A stretch of 64,000 nucleotides of DNA from Arthrobacter sp. Soil782 (lineage in GTDB: Bacteria; Actinomycetota; Actinomycetes; Actinomycetales; Micrococcaceae): NCBI RefSeq assembly GCF_001428435.1, contig NZ_LMSO01000009.1, forward strand, positions 392,086 to 456,085, read 5' to 3'. Position 1 is the stretch's first letter; the number at the start of each line of letters is the position of its first letter. Both the position numbers and the translations under genes were made by a program. Positions 7,252 through 64,000 of the stretch are shown piece by piece. The notes under the pieces are model-generated. The model was not told the DNA's origin, made no database searches, and worked only from the letters and a program-made list of their open reading frames with translations.

Positions 7252-8033
7252 GCGAAGCAGCGGGAACCGCAGGATCACAGCGCGCCCCCGGAGCGGAGTC
7301 AGTGCCCGGCAAGTCCGTCGTGAAGGTCACCGATCTGGTGGCCGGCTACCTGCCCGGCGTCAACATCCTGAACGGTTGCTCGATCGAAGCGCGGTCGGGT
7401 GAACTGATTGGGATTATCGGTCCCAACGGCGCAGGTAAGTCGACTCTCCTGAAGGCAATGTTCGGCCTCGTGAAAGTGCACTCCGGCACCGTAGTGGTGC
7501 GTGACCAGGACCTCACCGGCCTGAAAGCCAACAAGCTGGTCAGCAAGGGTGTGGGATTTGTTCCGCAGAACAATAACGTTTTCGCCACCCTGACCATCGA
7601 AGAGAACCTTCAGATGGGCATGTACCAGCGGCCCAAGGACTTCAAGGAACGCTTCGACTTTGTCACCGGCCTCTTCCCGGAACTCGGCAAGCGGCGCGCC
7701 CAGCGCGCCGGGTCACTCTCGGGTGGTGAACGGCAGATGGTGGCCATGGGCAGGGCGCTCATGATGGAACCGGCCGTGCTACTCCTTGACGAGCCGTCCG
7801 CCGGCCTCTCCCCCGTCAAACAGGATGAGACGTTCCTCCGTGTCCATGAAATCAACCGGGCCGGCGTCTCGGTCATCATGGTGGAACAGAACGCCCGGCG
7901 GTGCCTGCAGATCTGCGACCGCGCCTACGTCCTCGACCAGGGCAAGGACGCCTACACCGGCACCGGACGCGAGCTCATGAAGGACCCGAAGGTCATCCAG
8001 CTCTACCTCGGAACGCTCGCCGACACCGCGTAG
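7248..8033 (+). CDS. livF: ABC transporter ATP-binding protein (LivF)
   Basis: The 261-residue second ATPase of the Liv-type transporter. It has Walker A GPNGAGKST, signature LSGGERQMVAMGRALM, Walker B VLLLDEPSAGLSP and a C-terminal VIQLYLG segment typical of LivF. The first 25 residues are variable and precede the conserved start VVKVTDLVAGY. It is the last gene of the operon and is followed by two strong hairpins, with the binding protein livK convergent beyond them. Confidence 0.94.
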   Translation: MSEAAGTAGSQRAPGAESVPGKSVVKVTDLVAGYLPGVNILNGCSIEARSGELIGIIGPNGAGKSTLLKAMFGLVKVHSGTVVVRDQDLTGLKANKLVSKGVGFVPQNNNVFATLTIEENLQMGMYQRPKDFKERFDFVTGLFPELGKRRAQRAGSLSGGERQMVAMGRALMMEPAVLLLDEPSAGLSPVKQDETFLRVHEINRAGVSVIMVEQNARRCLQICDRAYVLDQGKDAYTGTGRELMKDPKVIQLYLGTLADTA

Positions 8034-8040
8034 CTCACAC

Positions 8041-8079
8041 CAGCTGAGGCCCTCTCCGTCCAGGAGGGGGCCTCAGCTG
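8041..8079 (+). terminator. Hairpin after livF
   Basis: A 12-base stem (CAGCTGAGGCCC paired with GGGCCTCAGCTG) begins eight bases after the livF stop. No T-run follows, so it may act together with the next hairpin. Confidence 0.6.
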
Positions 8080-8102
8080 CGTTAAGGGCTCGCCCACACG
8101 CA

Positions 8103-8135
8103 GAAGAACCCCTCCCAGGCTGGGAGGGGTTCTTC
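8103..8135. terminator. Bidirectional hairpin between livF and livK
   Basis: A perfect 15-base stem, GAAGAACCCCTCCCA and its complement, encloses GGC. It lies between convergent livF and livK and can terminate either strand. Confidence 0.75.
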
Positions 8136-8165
8136 CGTACTGTGCGAGTGAATCAGGTGGTGCGG

Positions 8166-9563
8166 TTAGAGCTGTCCGGCCTCGGAACGGTAAGGCTGCG
8201 GAACATTGTCCGCGTCGAACTCGTAGATACCGATGAAGGCTTCGGTCGGATCACCGTTCTCGTCGAACGTGATCGGGCCGGAGATGCCCTGGTAATCGAT
8301 GTCCTCGCCGTTGCGCTGGAGGGTGATGCAGCCTGCGTAGTCGAAGCACTCAGTGCCCTCCTTGGAGACTGCCTCAAGTTCAGCTGCGATTGCTGCTCCG
8401 TCAATGCTTCCCGCTGCATCTGCGGCGAGGGCGATGAGGTTCACGGCGTCGTAGCTTTCACCTGCGTAGTTCCAGACGTTCAGGTTAGGGTCGATACCGG
8501 CCAACGCCTCCTTGAACTGGTCGCCTGCGAAGGAACCGGGCTGGGTGCCCTGTGCGCCTTCGAGAGTGCCGGGATCAAGATCCTCGCTGTAGTCGGCGGT
8601 GTTGCCGTCCACGAAGAACATCGATCCTGGGTCAACACCCTGACCGGTCATCAGCGGGATGATGCTGTTGGCCTGGTCGAAGCTGATAACCACGTAGGCG
8701 TCAGGCTCGGCTGCCACGAGCGCGTCCACCTGGCTGCTGAACTGCGAGTCACCCTCATTGAACATTTCCTCGGCGACGACCTGGCCGCCGGCGCTCTCAA
8801 CTGTTTCCTTGATACTGGCCTGGAGACCGGTGCCGTACGCATCGTTGAGTACGATCATGCCCACGGTCTGCGCACCACAGGCCATGATGTAGTTGCCGAG
8901 CACGCGGCCCTGCAGGACGTCGGAGGGAGCGGTACGCCAGTAGAGCCCGTTGTCATCCCAGTCGGTGAAGTCCGGCGAGGTGTTGGCTGGCGACATCTGG
9001 ACTACGCCCGCACCGGTGATCTGGTTGATCACTGTCTGCGATACGCCGGACGACGCCGCACCGACAATCGCGCTGACATCCTGGGACAGGAGGTCGGTCA
9101 CGGACTGCGTTGCAATGTCAGTGGTCGTGTCACCGGAATCGCGGTGGATGATCTCGATGTCCTGGCCGAGCACGCCGCCGGACTCGTTGATCTCCTGTGC
9201 CGCGAGGTTAACGCCTGCAATTTCGGGAGGACCGAGGAATGCGAGCGCGCCCGTTGTGGGCAGGAGGGATCCAAGCACCAAGGGAGATTCGGAAGTGGTT
9301 TCCGCCTCAGGTACTGCACTCGGATCGCCCTTTTCGCCGGGCTCGGGGGCTGCGCCGCCCTGACTCTCGGGACAGGTGAGTCCCGACGCTGCCGCTGCCG
9401 AGGCTGTCTCGTCCGAAGGTGAGGCGCCGTCACCTTCGGGGGTGGGATTTCCACCGCAGGCAGATGCGAAAAGTGCGACTCCCAGACTCAGGGCCGCAAT
9501 CTTCGCTGCGCGCGGAGCATTCTCCCCGATGCTGAACCGCGCGGAGTTACGTGTTGCTGTCAT
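8166..9563 (-). CDS. livK: Branched-chain amino acid-type ABC substrate-binding lipoprotein (LivK)
   Basis: A 465-residue periplasmic-binding-fold protein of the Leu/Ile/Val-binding type I class. The N-terminus is a lipoprotein signal with the lipobox ASAC and lipidated Cys36, then a Ser/Glu/Pro-rich linker, then the mature fold beginning LVLGSLLPTTGALAFLGPPE. It should capture the ligand outside the membrane for LivHMGF. It is convergent with that operon instead of part of it, so it has its own promoter, where a CRP/GlxR-like site and another inverted repeat lie. Ligand identity cannot be read from sequence. Confidence 0.93.
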   Translation of the reverse strand: MTATRNSARFSIGENAPRAAKIAALSLGVALFASACGGNPTPEGDGASPSDETASAAAASGLTCPESQGGAAPEPGEKGDPSAVPEAETTSESPLVLGSLLPTTGALAFLGPPEIAGVNLAAQEINESGGVLGQDIEIIHRDSGDTTTDIATQSVTDLLSQDVSAIVGAASSGVSQTVINQITGAGVVQMSPANTSPDFTDWDDNGLYWRTAPSDVLQGRVLGNYIMACGAQTVGMIVLNDAYGTGLQASIKETVESAGGQVVAEEMFNEGDSQFSSQVDALVAAEPDAYVVISFDQANSIIPLMTGQGVDPGSMFFVDGNTADYSEDLDPGTLEGAQGTQPGSFAGDQFKEALAGIDPNLNVWNYAGESYDAVNLIALAADAAGSIDGAAIAAELEAVSKEGTECFDYAGCITLQRNGEDIDYQGISGPITFDENGDPTEAFIGIYEFDADNVPQPYRSEAGQL

Positions 9564-58101: not shown

Positions 58102-59718
58102 TTAGTGGAAGAAGTGGCGTGCTCCGGTGAAGTACATGGTGATGCCCGCCGCATTCGCCGCATCGATGACTTCCTGGTCGCGTACCGATCCTCCGGGCTG
58201 AACGACCGCGCGCACACCGGCGTCGACGAGGATCTGCAGACCGTCCGCGAACGGGAAGAACGCGTCCGACGCCGCTACCGCACCACGCGCGCGTTCGTTA
58301 CCCTCACCCGCGAGCGAGTTTGCCCGCTCCACCGCAAGCTTGCAGGAATCCAGCCGGTTTACCTGTCCCATTCCGACGCCGACGGCGGCACCATCGCGGG
58401 CGAGCAGGATTGCGTTGGACTTCGCGGCACGGCAGGCAGTCCAGGCGAAAGCGAGGTCCGCCAAAGTTGCGGTGTCCGCTGCCTCGCCCGCCGCGAGTGT
58501 CCAGTTCCCGGGGTCATCTCCGTCGGCGTTCACGGTGTCCGTGACCTGGATCAGGACGCCGCCGGAAACCTGACGGATCTCGGTCGGGTAGCGATCGTAG
58601 CCCTCGGGCAGGGCGAGCAGGCGGATGTTTTTCTTCTGGGAAAGTATCTCAACCGCTTCGGGCTCGAATCCGGGGGCGATGACAACCTCGGTGAAAATGT
58701 CCTTCACCGTCCTTGCCATTCCGGCCGTCACAGTACGGTTAGCTGCGATCACGCCGCCGAACGCGGATACGGGATCGCAGGCGTGCGCCTTGGCGTGGGC
58801 ATCCGCGATGGGATCTGTTGCGGTTGATGAGCCGACTGCAACACCACAAGGGTTGGCGTGTTTGATGATGGCCACGGCCGGCTCACGGAAGTCGTAGGCC
58901 GCACGCAACGCGGCATCGGCGTCGACGAAGTTGTTGTAGCTCATTGCCTTGCCGTGCAACTGGTCCGCCTGCGCAATTCCCACAGGAGCGGCCTTGTCCA
59001 CGTAGAGCGCTGCCTGCTGATGCGGGTTTTCGCCGTAGCGCAGTACCTCCGAGCGCTCCAGCGCCAGACCGGCGTAGGCAGGCCAGTCAATCAGGCCGTC
59101 GTCGTCCTCGTCCTGGAACTGCGTTGCCGTCCAGGTGGCGACCGCATTGTCATAGGCGGCGGTGTGAGCGAAGGCGCGTGCGGCCAGCTGCCGGCGGGTT
59201 TTCAGATCAAAGCCGCCTTCGCCGGCGGCGCGAACAACACTGCCGTAGAACGTCGGATCCACCACGATGCTGACGGCGGCATGATTCTTGGCTGCCGAGC
59301 GCACCATAGCGGGGCCGCCGATGTCGATCTGCTCGACGACGTCGTCCGCTGAGGCGCCGGAACGCACTGTTTCAACGAACGGATAGAGGTTGACCACTAC
59401 CAGGTCGAAGGCTTCGATCTCCATTTCGGCGAGGGTGTCCATGTGGGCCGGGACACGTCGGTCAGCCAGAATCCCGCCATGCACGCGCGGGTGAAGCGTC
59501 TTCACCCGGCCGTCGAGCATTTCCGGTGAACCTGTGACTTCCTCGACCTGCTGCACGGGGATGCCTGCCGCCGCGATGGTCTTGGCAGTAGACCCGGTGG
59601 ACACAATGCGGACGCCGGCGTTGTGCAGCCCCTGAGCAAGTTCCTCCAGACCGGTCTTGTCATAGACGGAAATCAGCGCTCGGCGGATGGGAACACGGTC
59701 AAGGTTGGTCAAGGTCAC
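58102..59718 (-). CDS. purH: Bifunctional AICAR transformylase / IMP cyclohydrolase
   Basis: A 538-residue bifunctional enzyme for the last two steps of IMP synthesis. The N-terminal cyclohydrolase domain has [20 protein letters not shown], and [10 protein letters not shown]; the C-terminal transformylase has the catalytic KHANPCGVA and GPA-like [20 protein letters not shown] region. The GTG at 59718 is chosen, with GGAG eight bases upstream; the open frame back to 59874 is not conserved. No purN is next to it. Its formyl donor, 10-formyl-THF, connects it with folD, glyA and purU in this window. Confidence 0.96.
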
Positions 59719-60029
59719 GCAGGTCTCCAAGGGGAATGAGTGCGGTGGAATCATCTCCAGTCTAAAAGGGCGGGAGTCCGGGCAGGAAATAACGCGCAAA
59801 TAACGATCAGCGGCGTGAAACCTTAATGTTCGAAACCGTGCTTTCCCAATTGGACCTGCTCGCAGGCCTGCCATGGCGCCTGTGTGGCAACCTTCCCCCG
59901 TTGCACAGCGTCCGCGGACGGTTGATAACAGACAGGTCTCATCGGTTGGAGTGAAGTACTAAGCACGCTTACGTAGATAGGGATCCGGCGCTTCGGCGCC
60001 ACAATCCACCGATAGAGGAGGAATACCCA
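59719..60029. other. 311-base purH-lipoprotein intergenic region
   Basis: The left part should hold the purH promoter. The right part is the leader of the lipoprotein gene, with the palindromic element at 59957-59976, a GGCGC-TTCG-GCGCC hairpin at 59987-60000 and the ribosome site GGAGGAA before ATG 60030. I see no gene in it. Confidence 0.7.
59957..59976 (+). promoter_or_regulatory. Palindromic element upstream of first lipoprotein gene
   Basis: TACTAAGCACGCTTACGTAG recurs with one change at 63608-63627 before the paralogous gene. The core (TAAGC, then GCTTA) is an inverted repeat. It ends 53 bases before the ATG. Confidence 0.6.
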
Positions 60030-61127
60030 ATGACTACGCACAAGCAGATGAGCCGAACCCGCAAGCTTGCCATGGCAGGCATCCTGCCGATTGCCGCCCT
60101 GAGCCTCGCAGGCTGCAACAGCACCTCGGGCACCGAAGAGGGCGCTGACGTCGAAGACGTGGTCGAGGAAGAAGACGCTGTAGACGCCGAATCAGGACCA
60201 TACGACGGCGTCTATGACACAGACTTCTACGAAGCCTACGACAGCTACGTCGGTGAGGAAGTGACCCTCTCAGCTGACGTGAACGAGATCGTCTCCGAGA
60301 AGTCCTTCACCATTGCCGGAACCGATGACACGACAGTCGAGGCGCTTCTCGTCATTGCCGAGGGCGAGATGGAGGAAGTGACACCCGGCCTGACGGTTTC
60401 CGTCACCGGCACCGTGATGGAGTCCTTCGACCTGCCGACCGTTGAGGAAGAAACCGGCCTTGACCTCGACGAGCGTCGACACCTCGGTGGACGCAGACAG
60501 CTAGCAACACCGCCCGCCGGCCAATCACACGGGTTGGCCGGCGGGCCCCACAGAGAAGAATCCCGATCCACAAAAGGAGGAGTCATGGGCACGATGAGTA
60601 AGCAGAATTGGATGAAGAAAGCAGCGGCGCTGTCGATCCTTCCTATCACCGCACTTGGCGTGGCAGGCTGCAACAGCACCTCCGGGCCTGAGACAGGCAC
60701 GGATGTCGAGGACATCGTCGAAGAAGATGAACTGATCGATGAGGAAGACGTCGCTGAGGAAGCGGATCCCGCCCTTGAACCGTACGACGGCGCCTACGAT
60801 CAGGACTTCTACGACGATGCTGAGAATTACGTGGGCCAGGAAGTAACCGTCTCAGCGGACGTAACGGCGACGCTCACGGATGATTCCTTCGTGATCGCGG
60901 GCGGTCCGGACACCACCGTCGATCCGCTGCTGGTGATCGAGGAACAGGAAATTCCTCCCCTCGACCTGGGCCAGGCCGTCAAGCTTACCGGAACCGTCGA
61001 GCAGGCCTTCGACGTCGCTGCCGTCGAGGAGGAGTTCGGAATCGACCTGGAGGATGAACTGTACGCCGACTACGTCGGCGATCCCTACCTCGCCGTCACG
61101 AGCGCCGAAATCCTCGAAGAGGAGTAA
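60030..61127 (+). CDS. Fused tandem lipoprotein frame (first unit damaged at its 3' end)
   Basis: A continuous 365-codon frame containing two complete lipoprotein units. Unit one (codons 1 to about 150) has the lipobox LAGC, an acidic linker VEDVVEEEDAVDAE and a beta-rich domain (YVGEEVTLSADVNEIVSEKS, then LTVSVTGTVMESFDLP). At DLDE it loses homology with unit two: the next residues are Arg/Gly-rich, while the plus-one frame gives a short Ser/Asp end and TAG at 60502-60504. The frame then crosses a 13-base-stem hairpin and runs in phase into unit two. This points to a deletion or frameshift that removed the first stop. The strong ribosome site GGAGGAATACCC precedes ATG 60030. Function is unknown. 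Confidence 0.6.
   Translation: MTTHKQMSRTRKLAMAGILPIAALSLAGCNSTSGTEEGADVEDVVEEEDAVDAESGPYDGVYDTDFYEAYDSYVGEEVTLSADVNEIVSEKSFTIAGTDDTTVEALLVIAEGEMEEVTPGLTVSVTGTVMESFDLPTVEEETGLDLDERRHLGGRRQLATPPAGQSHGLAGGPHREESRSTKGGVMGTMSKQNWMKKAAALSILPITALGVAGCNSTSGPETGTDVEDIVEEDELIDEEDVAEEADPALEPYDGAYDQDFYDDAENYVGQEVTVSADVTATLTDDSFVIAGGPDTTVDPLLVIEEQEIPPLDLGQAVKLTGTVEQAFDVAAVEEEFGIDLEDELYADYVGDPYLAVTSAEILEEE
60512..60546 (+). terminator. Terminator-like hairpin inside the fused lipoprotein frame
   Basis: GCCCGCCGGCCAA at 60512-60524 pairs perfectly with 60534-60546 around a nine-base loop. It lies eight bases after the plus-one-frame stop, where a terminator or processing hairpin of the undamaged first gene would be. 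Confidence 0.7.
60585..61127 (+). CDS. Acidic lipoprotein (second unit), OB-fold-like domain
   Basis: A 180-residue lipoprotein with its own start, ATG 60585, and strong ribosome site AAAGGAGGAGTC. The signal WMKKAAALSILPITALGVAG ends in Cys of lipobox VAGC. A very acidic linker (about residues 37-65) leads to a domain with YVGQEVTVSADVTATLTDDS, TTVDPLLVIEEQEI, VKLTGTVEQAFDVAAVEEEF and YADYVGDPYLAVTSAEIL. The strand pattern suggests an OB-type barrel, which is inference. It is paralogous to unit one and to the gene at 63711. I recognise no named family. Confidence 0.8.
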   Translation: MGTMSKQNWMKKAAALSILPITALGVAGCNSTSGPETGTDVEDIVEEDELIDEEDVAEEADPALEPYDGAYDQDFYDDAENYVGQEVTVSADVTATLTDDSFVIAGGPDTTVDPLLVIEEQEIPPLDLGQAVKLTGTVEQAFDVAAVEEEFGIDLEDELYADYVGDPYLAVTSAEILEEE

Positions 61128-61201
61128 TCAGCTACACAGACCTCTCCAGACAAGACGCTTTCCGCAGTGAAGGCACCCTCTACTGAGTGAAGGAGAACAT
61201 C

Positions 61202-61951
61202 ATGATCACCCAGAACGATATTTCCCGCATCCTCGATTCCAAAGGCAACGTCCTCGACTTCGACGGCAACAAGGTCGGCTCGGTCGGAGAAATTTACGTC
61301 GATGACCGTACCGGCAACCCGAGCTGGGTCACGGCCAACACGGGGCTCTTCGGATCGAAGGAGTCTTTTGCACCGCTTGACGGCGCAACGCTCGAGGGCG
61401 ACGACGTGCGGGTGGGCTACACCAAGGCCACCATCAAGGACGCCCCGCAGGTAGCTCCCGACGCGCACTTGAGCGAGCTGGAGGAAGCCGAGCTATACCG
61501 CTATTACGGCATAGCGGACGGGGACTACGTTTCGGATCCCAACTCCGTCGGTCGCGACACCTCGGGGCGGGTGACGGATGACTCAATGACCCGTTCTGAG
61601 GAGCAGCTCCACGTAGGCACGGAGCGGCAGGAGACCGGACGGGCTCGTCTGCGCAAGTTCGTCGTTACGGAGAATGTCACTAAAACGGTCCCGGTCCAGC
61701 GTGAAGAGGTGCGCGTCGAGCGAGAGCCGATCACCGAAGCCAACCGCGGTGATGCCCTCAGCGGCCAGGGCGTAAGTGAGGACGAGCATGAGGTGGTCCT
61801 CCACGAGGAGCGACCCGTCGTAGATAAGGAAGCTGTGCCGGTGGAGCGCGTCCGTCTGAACAAGGACACGGTCACCGAAGAGCAGACCGTGAATGAGGAA
61901 GTCCGAAAGGAACAAATCGACACCGACGACATCGACCGTAACCGCCGCTAA
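61202..61951 (+). CDS. PRC-barrel and DUF2382 domain protein
   Basis: A 249-residue cytoplasmic protein. Residues of about 8-85 form a PRC-barrel (KVGSVGEIYVDDRTGNPSWV, then FAPLDGATLEGDDVRVGYTK). Residues of about 135-245 match DUF2382 (LRKFVVTENVTKTVPVQREE, VLHEERPVVDKEAVPVERV), highly charged and repetitive. The family is stress-associated in actinobacteria and other bacteria. The ATG at 61202 is used, with AAGGAG six bases upstream. It lies 74 bases after the lipoprotein pair on the same strand, so co-transcription is plausible. Confidence 0.9.
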   Translation: MITQNDISRILDSKGNVLDFDGNKVGSVGEIYVDDRTGNPSWVTANTGLFGSKESFAPLDGATLEGDDVRVGYTKATIKDAPQVAPDAHLSELEEAELYRYYGIADGDYVSDPNSVGRDTSGRVTDDSMTRSEEQLHVGTERQETGRARLRKFVVTENVTKTVPVQREEVRVEREPITEANRGDALSGQGVSEDEHEVVLHEERPVVDKEAVPVERVRLNKDTVTEEQTVNEEVRKEQIDTDDIDRNRR

Positions 61952-62042
61952 CCGGCGGTCGGTGACGCTGGCGCATATCAATCCATAACCCGCGCATCGG
62001 GCCGTCCTGCCAGTGTCGGTTCTTGCACACGAAGGAGGAGTC

Positions 62043-62188
62043 ATGAACAACGCACCGATGAATTCCTGGTGGAGGAAGATTGCAGTTGCGGCACTGTTGC
62101 CACTTGCCGCGGTGGGAGTCGTCGGCTGCGATGATCGGCCGTTGAGGAAGAGGTAGTCGACGAGGAAGTTGTTGAAGAGGACGATTAG
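62043..62188 (+). pseudogene. Frameshifted remnant of a small acidic lipoprotein
   Basis: ATG 62043, with AAGGAGGAGTC before it, opens a frame with a lipoprotein signal (WWRKIAVAALLPLAAVGVVG then Cys). It stops at TAG 62154-62156 after 37 residues. One base shift at about 62140 restores the acidic run VEEEVVDEEVVEEDD to TAG 62186-62188. The acidic tail matches the linkers of the neighbouring lipoproteins, so this looks like a shortened paralogue with a single-base deletion, or a sequencing error. No folded domain remains. Confidence 0.6.
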
Positions 62189-62229
62189 AACCTCTTACGC
62201 GAATCTTCCCTCAGAGAACATCATGAAAA

Positions 62230-62260
62230 CGGCCGGCCGGAAACTACTCCCGGCCGGCCG
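62230..62260 (+). terminator. GC-rich hairpin after the lipoprotein remnant
   Basis: CGGCCGGCCGG pairs with CCGGCCGGCCG around nine bases, followed by CTTTC. Confidence 0.7.
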
Positions 62261-62309
62261 CTTTCGCATCTGAACCCGGATCCGGGTCGGAGCTTCGATT
62301 GGAAACATT

Positions 62310-63386
62310 GTGGGCCAAGTCACGGTTGGATTGATAGCAGACCCAGGTCTGCCTGAAAAGATCATGCACCAGCTCAAGAGCAAACTCGCCAACGAACTGC
62401 GGCATGGGACGGATGATGCCGAAGTTTGGAAGGTACATACGAAGCGCGAGAAGCTGCCGCTTAATTCCGAGGGAGAAATTCCATTCTTCTCCCTGACGAA
62501 AAGGCTGAAGAACGAGAACGGCTGGGACTACCTCTTCTATCTGACTGACTTGCCAAGGGCCGCAGACGGAGAACCGATGCTTGTGGAGATAGACCACGAG
62601 ATGAGCGGCGCACTGATCTCCCTTCCGGTGCTGGGCGCCGTTGGCGTTCAAGCTAAAGCGCGCAGACTCATCCTGGCGCTGGTCCATGCCCTGAGGGCAG
62701 AGCCATTGGCGACCGCTTTCCACCAACTCGATGGGGTGGGCCTGGGCAGGACTTCCTACCACCCCGGAGAGGAGCGGGACAAGCCGAGCTACCTCACGAC
62801 GTCGGGCAGGTCCGGCCGCTTTCGATTACTGGTGGGGATGGTCCGCAACAATCGGCCGGGGCGGCTACTGCCGGCCCTGTCGAGTTGCATCGCAGCGGCG
62901 GCAGCTTCGGGAGCCTTCGGCATCTTCTATGCAGCCATCTGGAACATGGCCGACGCACTTTCCCCGCTCCGGTTGTTCATGATCAGCGTCTTGAGCATCG
63001 GCGCGCTGAGTGCCTGGCTGATCATGCACAACGGACTGTGGAGCAAGACGAAGCGGCACAGCAAATGGGACATCAACGAGGCCAGACGTGACAACGCAGC
63101 CACCATCATCACCGTGTACCTGAGCGTGACGATAATGTACCTGGTCCTGTATGGAATGCTCCTGGCCGGCTCCATAGCAGTCATCTCCACGAGCTACCTC
63201 CAGTCCCAATTGGGGCATCCAGTGGGCTTCCTCGACTACGCCACCTTGTCCTGGTTGGCGGCATCGCTTGGCACGATCGCCGGAGCATTGGGGTCGAATT
63301 TCGATCAGGACGAAGCAATCCGCGAAGCGACGTACAGCCGGCGGCAGCACGAACGCAGAAAGCTCGCCGAGTCATACGAGGACTGA
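62310..63386 (+). CDS. Membrane protein of unknown function
   Basis: A 358-residue protein I do not recognise. The first 185 residues are soluble, with an alpha/beta look (TVGLIADPGLPEKIMHQLKS, GWDYLFYLTDLPR, RRLILALVHALRAEPLATAF). Four or five membrane helices follow between about residues 188 and 332. The C-terminal 28 residues are charged (RRQHERRKLAESYED). Start is GTG 62310, with GGAAA before it. It lies between lipoprotein paralogues and may belong with them. Codon use is typical for the window. Confidence 0.75.
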   Translation: MGQVTVGLIADPGLPEKIMHQLKSKLANELRHGTDDAEVWKVHTKREKLPLNSEGEIPFFSLTKRLKNENGWDYLFYLTDLPRAADGEPMLVEIDHEMSGALISLPVLGAVGVQAKARRLILALVHALRAEPLATAFHQLDGVGLGRTSYHPGEERDKPSYLTTSGRSGRFRLLVGMVRNNRPGRLLPALSSCIAAAAASGAFGIFYAAIWNMADALSPLRLFMISVLSIGALSAWLIMHNGLWSKTKRHSKWDINEARRDNAATIITVYLSVTIMYLVLYGMLLAGSIAVISTSYLQSQLGHPVGFLDYATLSWLAASLGTIAGALGSNFDQDEAIREATYSRRQHERRKLAESYED

Positions 63387-63710
63387 GATGGCGCGAGCCG
63401 TGCACCCGTAGTGAACGTCAAAGACAGTACAACACCTGAAGTAACGCCGGAATAACGATGCCTGTTGCCGTTCCTTGATGTTCTTCGCCGTCCTCGGGCG
63501 TCGACTTCCCAGACACGCCCGCGATAGAGCTGATCAGCTTCGGGCTTACCGGTGAAGCAGTCTCGAAAGTCTTAGTTACAGAACAGTCACGCTGGTTGAG
63601 GGCAAACTACTAAGCATGCTTACGTAGCAATTGAACGGGCAGCAAGGACCTTCCCACCAGGCATTGCACTGGAGTCCGAGCGCCGTCCACCAATAGAGGA
63701 GGAATACCCA
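63387..63710. other. 324-base gap upstream of the last lipoprotein gene
   Basis: No gene is seen. The last 110 bases form a leader similar to that at 59940-60029, including the palindromic element and the final 20 or so bases with GGAGGAATACCC. The first 200 bases show nothing I can name. Confidence 0.6.
63608..63627 (+). promoter_or_regulatory. Palindromic element upstream of last lipoprotein gene
   Basis: TACTAAGCATGCTTACGTAG, here with a perfect AAGCATGCTT core, is the second copy of the element at 59957. It ends 83 bases before the ATG. Confidence 0.6.
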
Positions 63711-64000
63711 ATGACTACGCACAAGCAGATGAGCCGCACCCGCAAGCTTGCCATGGCAGGCATCCTGCCGATCGCCGCCTTGAGCCTCGCAGGGTGTAAC
63801 AGCACCTCAGGTACAGAAGCGGGCGCTGACGTCGAAGATGTGGTCGAGGAGGAAGAAGCCGTTGACGCCGGCGCAGCCGTAGAACCCTACGAGGGTGCCT
63901 ACGACACCGGGTTCTATGAGGACTACGAGAGCTACGTCGGTGAGGAAGTGACCCTTTCGGCGGACGTGAACGAGATCGTCTCGGAGAAGTCCTTCACCAT
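63711..64000 (+). CDS. Acidic lipoprotein, 3'-truncated by window edge
   Basis: The first 96 codons of a lipoprotein nearly identical to unit one at 60030. The signal and lipobox LAGC are the same, the acidic linker is VEDVVEEEEAVDAGAA, and the domain starts EPYEGAYDTGFYEDYESYVG. The leader and ribosome site are also duplicated. It runs off the window. It is a recent duplicate of the first lipoprotein gene, about 3.7 kb away, and its 3' end would show what unit one lost. Confidence 0.85.
   Translation, partial: MTTHKQMSRTRKLAMAGILPIAALSLAGCNSTSGTEAGADVEDVVEEEEAVDAGAAVEPYEGAYDTGFYEDYESYVGEEVTLSADVNEIVSEKSFT

Follow-up and report, generated by a model that had tools for sequence, protein, structure and literature searches.

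An open frame of 365 codons occupies positions 60030-61127 (+) of the window, by which we mean the whole 64,000-nucleotide stretch analysed here, a part of contig C9 of the Arthrobacter sp. Soil782 genome (G000; 3.42 Mb in 14 contigs). The initial annotation proposed that two lipoprotein genes had merged in this frame into a two-domain, doubly targeted protein. The question is whether the frame encodes such a fusion, or whether a damaged gene (unit A) runs into the intact gene downstream of it (unit two).

Layout of the 365-codon frame

An open reading frame check gave a product of 365 aa. As first described, the zero frame continues from 60030 through a hairpin and remains in phase with unit two to 61127 (Table 1). 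The product contains the motifs LSLAGC and LGVAGC, one in each half, both of which we take to be lipobox-like. Unit two also has a start of its own, as initially annotated, and its ATG at 60585 is in phase with 60030.

Table 1 Features of the 365-codon frame and its surroundings
Feature	Position	Strand	Remarks
Palindromic element upstream of unit A	59959-59972	+	Pattern match
Palindrome, further places	63610-63623; L035:7818; L039:8519		
Unit A	60030-60470	+	Lipoprotein signal, acidic linker, most of a predicted OB-fold domain; homology to B up to D147
Putative deletion joint	60470-60473	+	47 bases of B absent; exact place ambiguous from the 2-base overlap
Former unit A tail VDTSVDADS and TAG stop	60475-60504	+	Now in the +1 frame
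Hairpin 3' of former unit A stop	60512-60546	+	Strong; B followed by an identical hairpin; without T-run
Shine-Dalgarno AGGAGG of unit two	60575-60580	+	Sequence
Unit two	60585-61127	+	Complete lipoprotein gene of the same family as unit A and B, 180 aa
Paralogue B	63711-64000	+	Cut by the window edge; complete at L008:797-1324, 175 aa

The openness of the frame is unremarkable, because the zero frame of the 111-base spacer was open in 67.7% of 5000 dinucleotide shuffles and one third of deletion lengths gives the phase. Openness and phase are thus expected by chance and are weak evidence. In the real spacer, two of the three frames are open. With all deletion lengths equally likely, a fusion would result from about one such deletion in four. 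The arginine-rich spacer sequence is the former tail and 3' flank translated in another frame.

Unit A lacks 47 bases of paralogue B

Comparison with the full paralogue starting at 63711, whose protein beyond the window edge ends in DEAFVDFDGENYVVAESVDTSVDADS, revealed an internal loss of 47 bases in unit A. In an alignment that starts 60 bases before the ATG, the first 300 columns contained 57 mismatches and a 6-base gap, and the next 207 columns contained five mismatches, followed by the 47-base gap. On the 3' side of the gap, both alignment and BLAST showed unit A to be identical to B at 98 of 98 bases, through the tail, the stop, the hairpin, and the 3' flank. This rise in identity toward the 3' end looks like gene conversion between unit A and B or an assembly effect.

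The missing bases lie after residue 147 of unit A, where the two sides of the joint overlap by 2 bases. A gap of 47 bases, not being divisible by three, shifts the former tail into the +1 frame, while the zero frame continues past it. The claim that unit one loses its homology to the 63711 paralogue was borne out, with the match to B ending after DLD, and so was the TAG at 60502-60504 as the end of the +1 frame, in which the tail VDTSVDADS is read. Unit one has therefore lost something relative to its paralogue, and its former stop is now out of frame owing to the 47-base gap. Programmed frameshifting was ruled out, since 47 bases are absent rather than the frame slipping at one site.

The tail that is now out of frame has counterparts in relatives. 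SVDTSVDADS is the end of an intact gene in genome G012 with 84% identity to B, and the second copy in G012 and the copies in G019 and G015 finish with VDTSVDADS or a similar sequence; the remaining family members have different C-terminal tails. The complete C-terminal part of the protein (helix, last strand, and tail) is present in frame in unit two and missing in unit A. At the other end of the protein, Cys29 of B, the lipobox cysteine, is invariant in 18 of 18 rows of the family alignment and in 19 of 19 when unit A is added.

Family assignment and predicted fold

Neither the 365-aa frame nor unit two matched any Pfam or NCBIfam family above the curated cut-off. The domain DUF4431 (PF14485) scored 19.3 bits with the 365-aa frame and 13.6 bits with unit two, both below the Pfam gathering cut-off of 24 bits. 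The PG1828 family lipoprotein (NF050142) scored 30.2 bits with the 365-aa frame, below the NCBIfam cut-off of 50, and its best stretch covered residues 15-52, which comprise the signal and the acidic part.

The structural model of B (mean pLDDT 73.7, with blocks of 81-92 over residues 61-170 and 47 residues at a pLDDT of at least 90) shows a small beta structure in which residues 150-156 form a helix and residues 161-168 the last strand. Foldseek returned 17 matches with E up to 0.001 and TM scores by query of 0.31-0.41. The best were RPA14 and the aspartyl- and asparaginyl-tRNA synthetases, which are known as OB-fold proteins. On the basis of these matches, an OB fold for the B family is likely but not firm. 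The family resembles DUF4431 and OB-fold domains in its sub-threshold match and its Foldseek matches, but it differs in remaining below the cut-off, in its low TM scores, and in having a signal for lipid anchoring.

The 47 missing bases correspond to residues 150-166 of B, i.e., the helix at 150-156 and most of the strand at 161-168. A model of the 185 residues before unit two, built from the B alignment plus the sequence itself, had a mean pLDDT of 59.3 and no residue at or above 90. It contained a low-confidence strand at residues 168-175 (blocks near 50) formed by spacer residues. Judged from this model, the domain of unit A is probably incomplete, and the spacer strand could, with low confidence, stand in for the lost one. 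The lower model confidence for unit A does not prove misfolding.

Among the papers listed by a search of the open-access literature (for DUF4431, PG1828, fusions, and the palindrome core), none concerned the lipoprotein family of B by its title or abstract opening, and those listed for PG1828 dealt, by title, mostly with P. gingivalis. As predicted lipid-anchored OB-fold proteins, the members of the B family may deserve study on their own account.

Distribution in related genomes

With B as the query, matches were found in 11 of 38 genomes of the genus including G000, one of them weak. With an alignment of 18 family members as the query, 33 of 395 genomes of the taxonomic family had matches, again including G000; these genomes were drawn from a larger group, scoring covered eight candidates in each of them, and the best match was weak (E 7e-5 to 9e-4) in 10 of the 33. 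Among the matches scored, two near-complete matches in one open frame occurred only in G000 (1-150 and 1-171, in a 390-codon frame). No fusion was found in any other genome with a match, either in the 38 genus genomes or among the eight candidates from each of the 395 family genomes. An in-phase product conserved in relatives, which would have pointed to a true fusion, was looked for in both sets and not found.

Three other frames were considered and rejected as fusions. In G028, the two partial matches that share a 160-codon frame belong to a single 140-aa gene. The long frames of G305 (623 codons) and G299 (1086 codons) have one family match each, and reading these stretches showed a single lipoprotein gene with the frame open upstream.

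A contig scan with the single protein query returned no loci, and a scan with the alignment returned 13, in Arthrobacter, Kocuria, Blastococcus, Geodermatophilus, Streptomyces, and Pseudonocardia; in both scans, records of the own genome or a near genome were possibly left out. In a separate set of 13 loci that we read, we saw no A-like gene immediately before a gene like unit two, so the joint itself has no counterpart to be compared across them. The intact family genes read in relatives encode 140 to 190 aa, with start codons chosen by us. A plasmid search gave one partial match, from Kocuria rosea, at 33.9% identity. Family genes split between frames were observed in two of the 10 other matching genus genomes, G001 and G023 (L039, about 7904-8430, and L019, 1283-1809).

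Hairpin and upstream palindrome

The hairpin within the 365-codon frame has a 15-pair stem with a free energy of -34.2 kcal/mol (z -5.42 against 200 shuffles). The hairpin that follows the truncated paralogue C is a different one (z -3.22). The initial annotation had called the hairpin in the frame terminator-like. The strong stem is real; an intrinsic terminator would combine a GC-rich stem with a T-run, and no T-run follows this hairpin. It is also not among the four sites listed by a terminator scan of 59700-64000, in which 3.1 sites were expected. A role of this hairpin as a terminator is conceivable.

Many family genes are preceded, at a distance of 71-101 bases from their start, by a palindrome resembling CTAAGC-N-TGCTTAC. 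At least 13 of the 17 pattern positions were matched in 11 of 20 upstream regions, compared with 0.02 regions per set in 100 shuffled sets; the pattern was written after six of the 20 regions had been viewed, and among the 14 others, five reach 13 positions and nine do not. With one mismatch or less, the palindrome occurs at five places in the own genome, two of which lie before family genes, and the reversed control occurs at one. This conserved palindrome may be an operator or promoter element, and it may be the more interesting by-product of this analysis.

Origin of the fused frame

We put a probability of roughly 0.6 (0.62) on the reading that unit A is a recently broken gene whose frame runs by chance into its neighbour, and that it is effectively a pseudogene. 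Unit A would have been one member of a local array of lipoprotein paralogues, each with a lipobox, usually an acidic linker, and one predicted OB-fold domain. The loss of 47 bases toward the 3' end of unit A, which may have come about through illegitimate recombination at the 2-base overlap, would have taken out the final helix together with most of the final strand and displaced the tail and stop from the frame. Translation that begins at 60030 would continue through the hairpin into unit two, with the phase being a coincidence, and unit two would be made from its own ribosome site, whose AGGAGG lies four bases before the ATG. We infer that the organism itself carries the deletion and acquired it recently, that the domain of unit A would be unstable, and that the 365-residue product would be minor and without function.

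The main rival is an assembly error, in which reads from the near-identical copies (A, B, and C) were misjoined and unit A is in reality intact. It is the less likely cause, but it must be taken as serious because a single N at L008:1389 immediately follows, in B, the 98 bases that are identical in A. This N marks an assembly gap between the 3' flank of B and the truncated copy C, the first part of which is missing, and the 98-base identity between A and B reaches directly up to it. Copy C begins after the N with 93 bases identical to A, and the end of this match at the joint of A follows from the deletion itself. A 100-N gap likewise interrupts a family gene in G015, and repeats have been documented as misassembly sites in other bacteria (PMC5771137). 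However, the two sides of the joint overlap by only 2 bases, which is not typical of ordinary joins at repeat overlaps, and the 3' part of B occurs in the own genome at four places only (B, A, C, and a member 35 kb away), with no further copy found there. The completeness of the genome (99.68%) also argues against genome-wide indel errors. From the sequence, we would favor a real deletion over an assembly error at about 2 to 1, and the fusion reading is unsupported under either. A real and useful fusion, in which the 365 residues would comprise two OB-fold domains and two lipid signals, appears very improbable. It would fit an open frame that is in phase, the presence of the upstream element and ribosome site of unit A, and the room in the unit A model for a replacement strand derived from the spacer, at low confidence. 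However, an open, in-phase frame is to be expected by chance, the fusion was not seen in the other matching genomes, the arginine-rich spacer is a former tail and 3' flank in another frame, and the first domain appears to be incomplete. Moreover, a second lipid signal that lies within an exported chain would be expected to serve as a membrane anchor or stop-transfer sequence instead of being lipidated, which would put the domain of unit two on the wrong side. The two-domain, doubly targeted protein of the initial annotation therefore finds no support. If the deletion is real and was kept, a two-domain envelope protein spanning the membrane at the second signal, with its first domain completed by a strand from the former 3' flank, could have gained a use, and we give this outcome hardly any chance.

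Pseudogenes arising by out-of-frame internal deletion are known from paralogue arrays. A broken unit A would resemble them in keeping its tail, stop, and 3' flank out of frame with intact sisters nearby, but would differ in that its shifted frame meets the next paralogue in phase. The lpl genes of Staphylococcus aureus form a tandem lipoprotein cluster (PMC4470592) and likewise consist of clustered same-strand lipoprotein paralogues. The array studied here differs in its predicted OB fold and in having other genes between the copies. Either a simple frameshifting deletion or a slip in assembly can give rise to a long open frame that crosses a hairpin in phase with a paralogue, and a gene caller could annotate the 365-codon frame as a two-domain lipoprotein.

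Neighbouring genes of the array

The own genome contained seven matches to unit two: unit A, unit two itself, B, the truncated copy C, two members located shortly outside the window, and a further one about 35 kb from its edge. The lipoprotein genes are interspersed with a PRC-barrel/DUF2382 gene (61202-61951) and a gene encoding 358 aa (62310-63386) with no Pfam or NCBIfam family above the cut-off. A tiny lipoprotein start, which reads to GCDD, was also observed at 62043-62188; its likely acidic continuation, VEEEVVDEEVVEEDD, and a stop lie in another frame, and it is perhaps a second frame-broken gene in the array.
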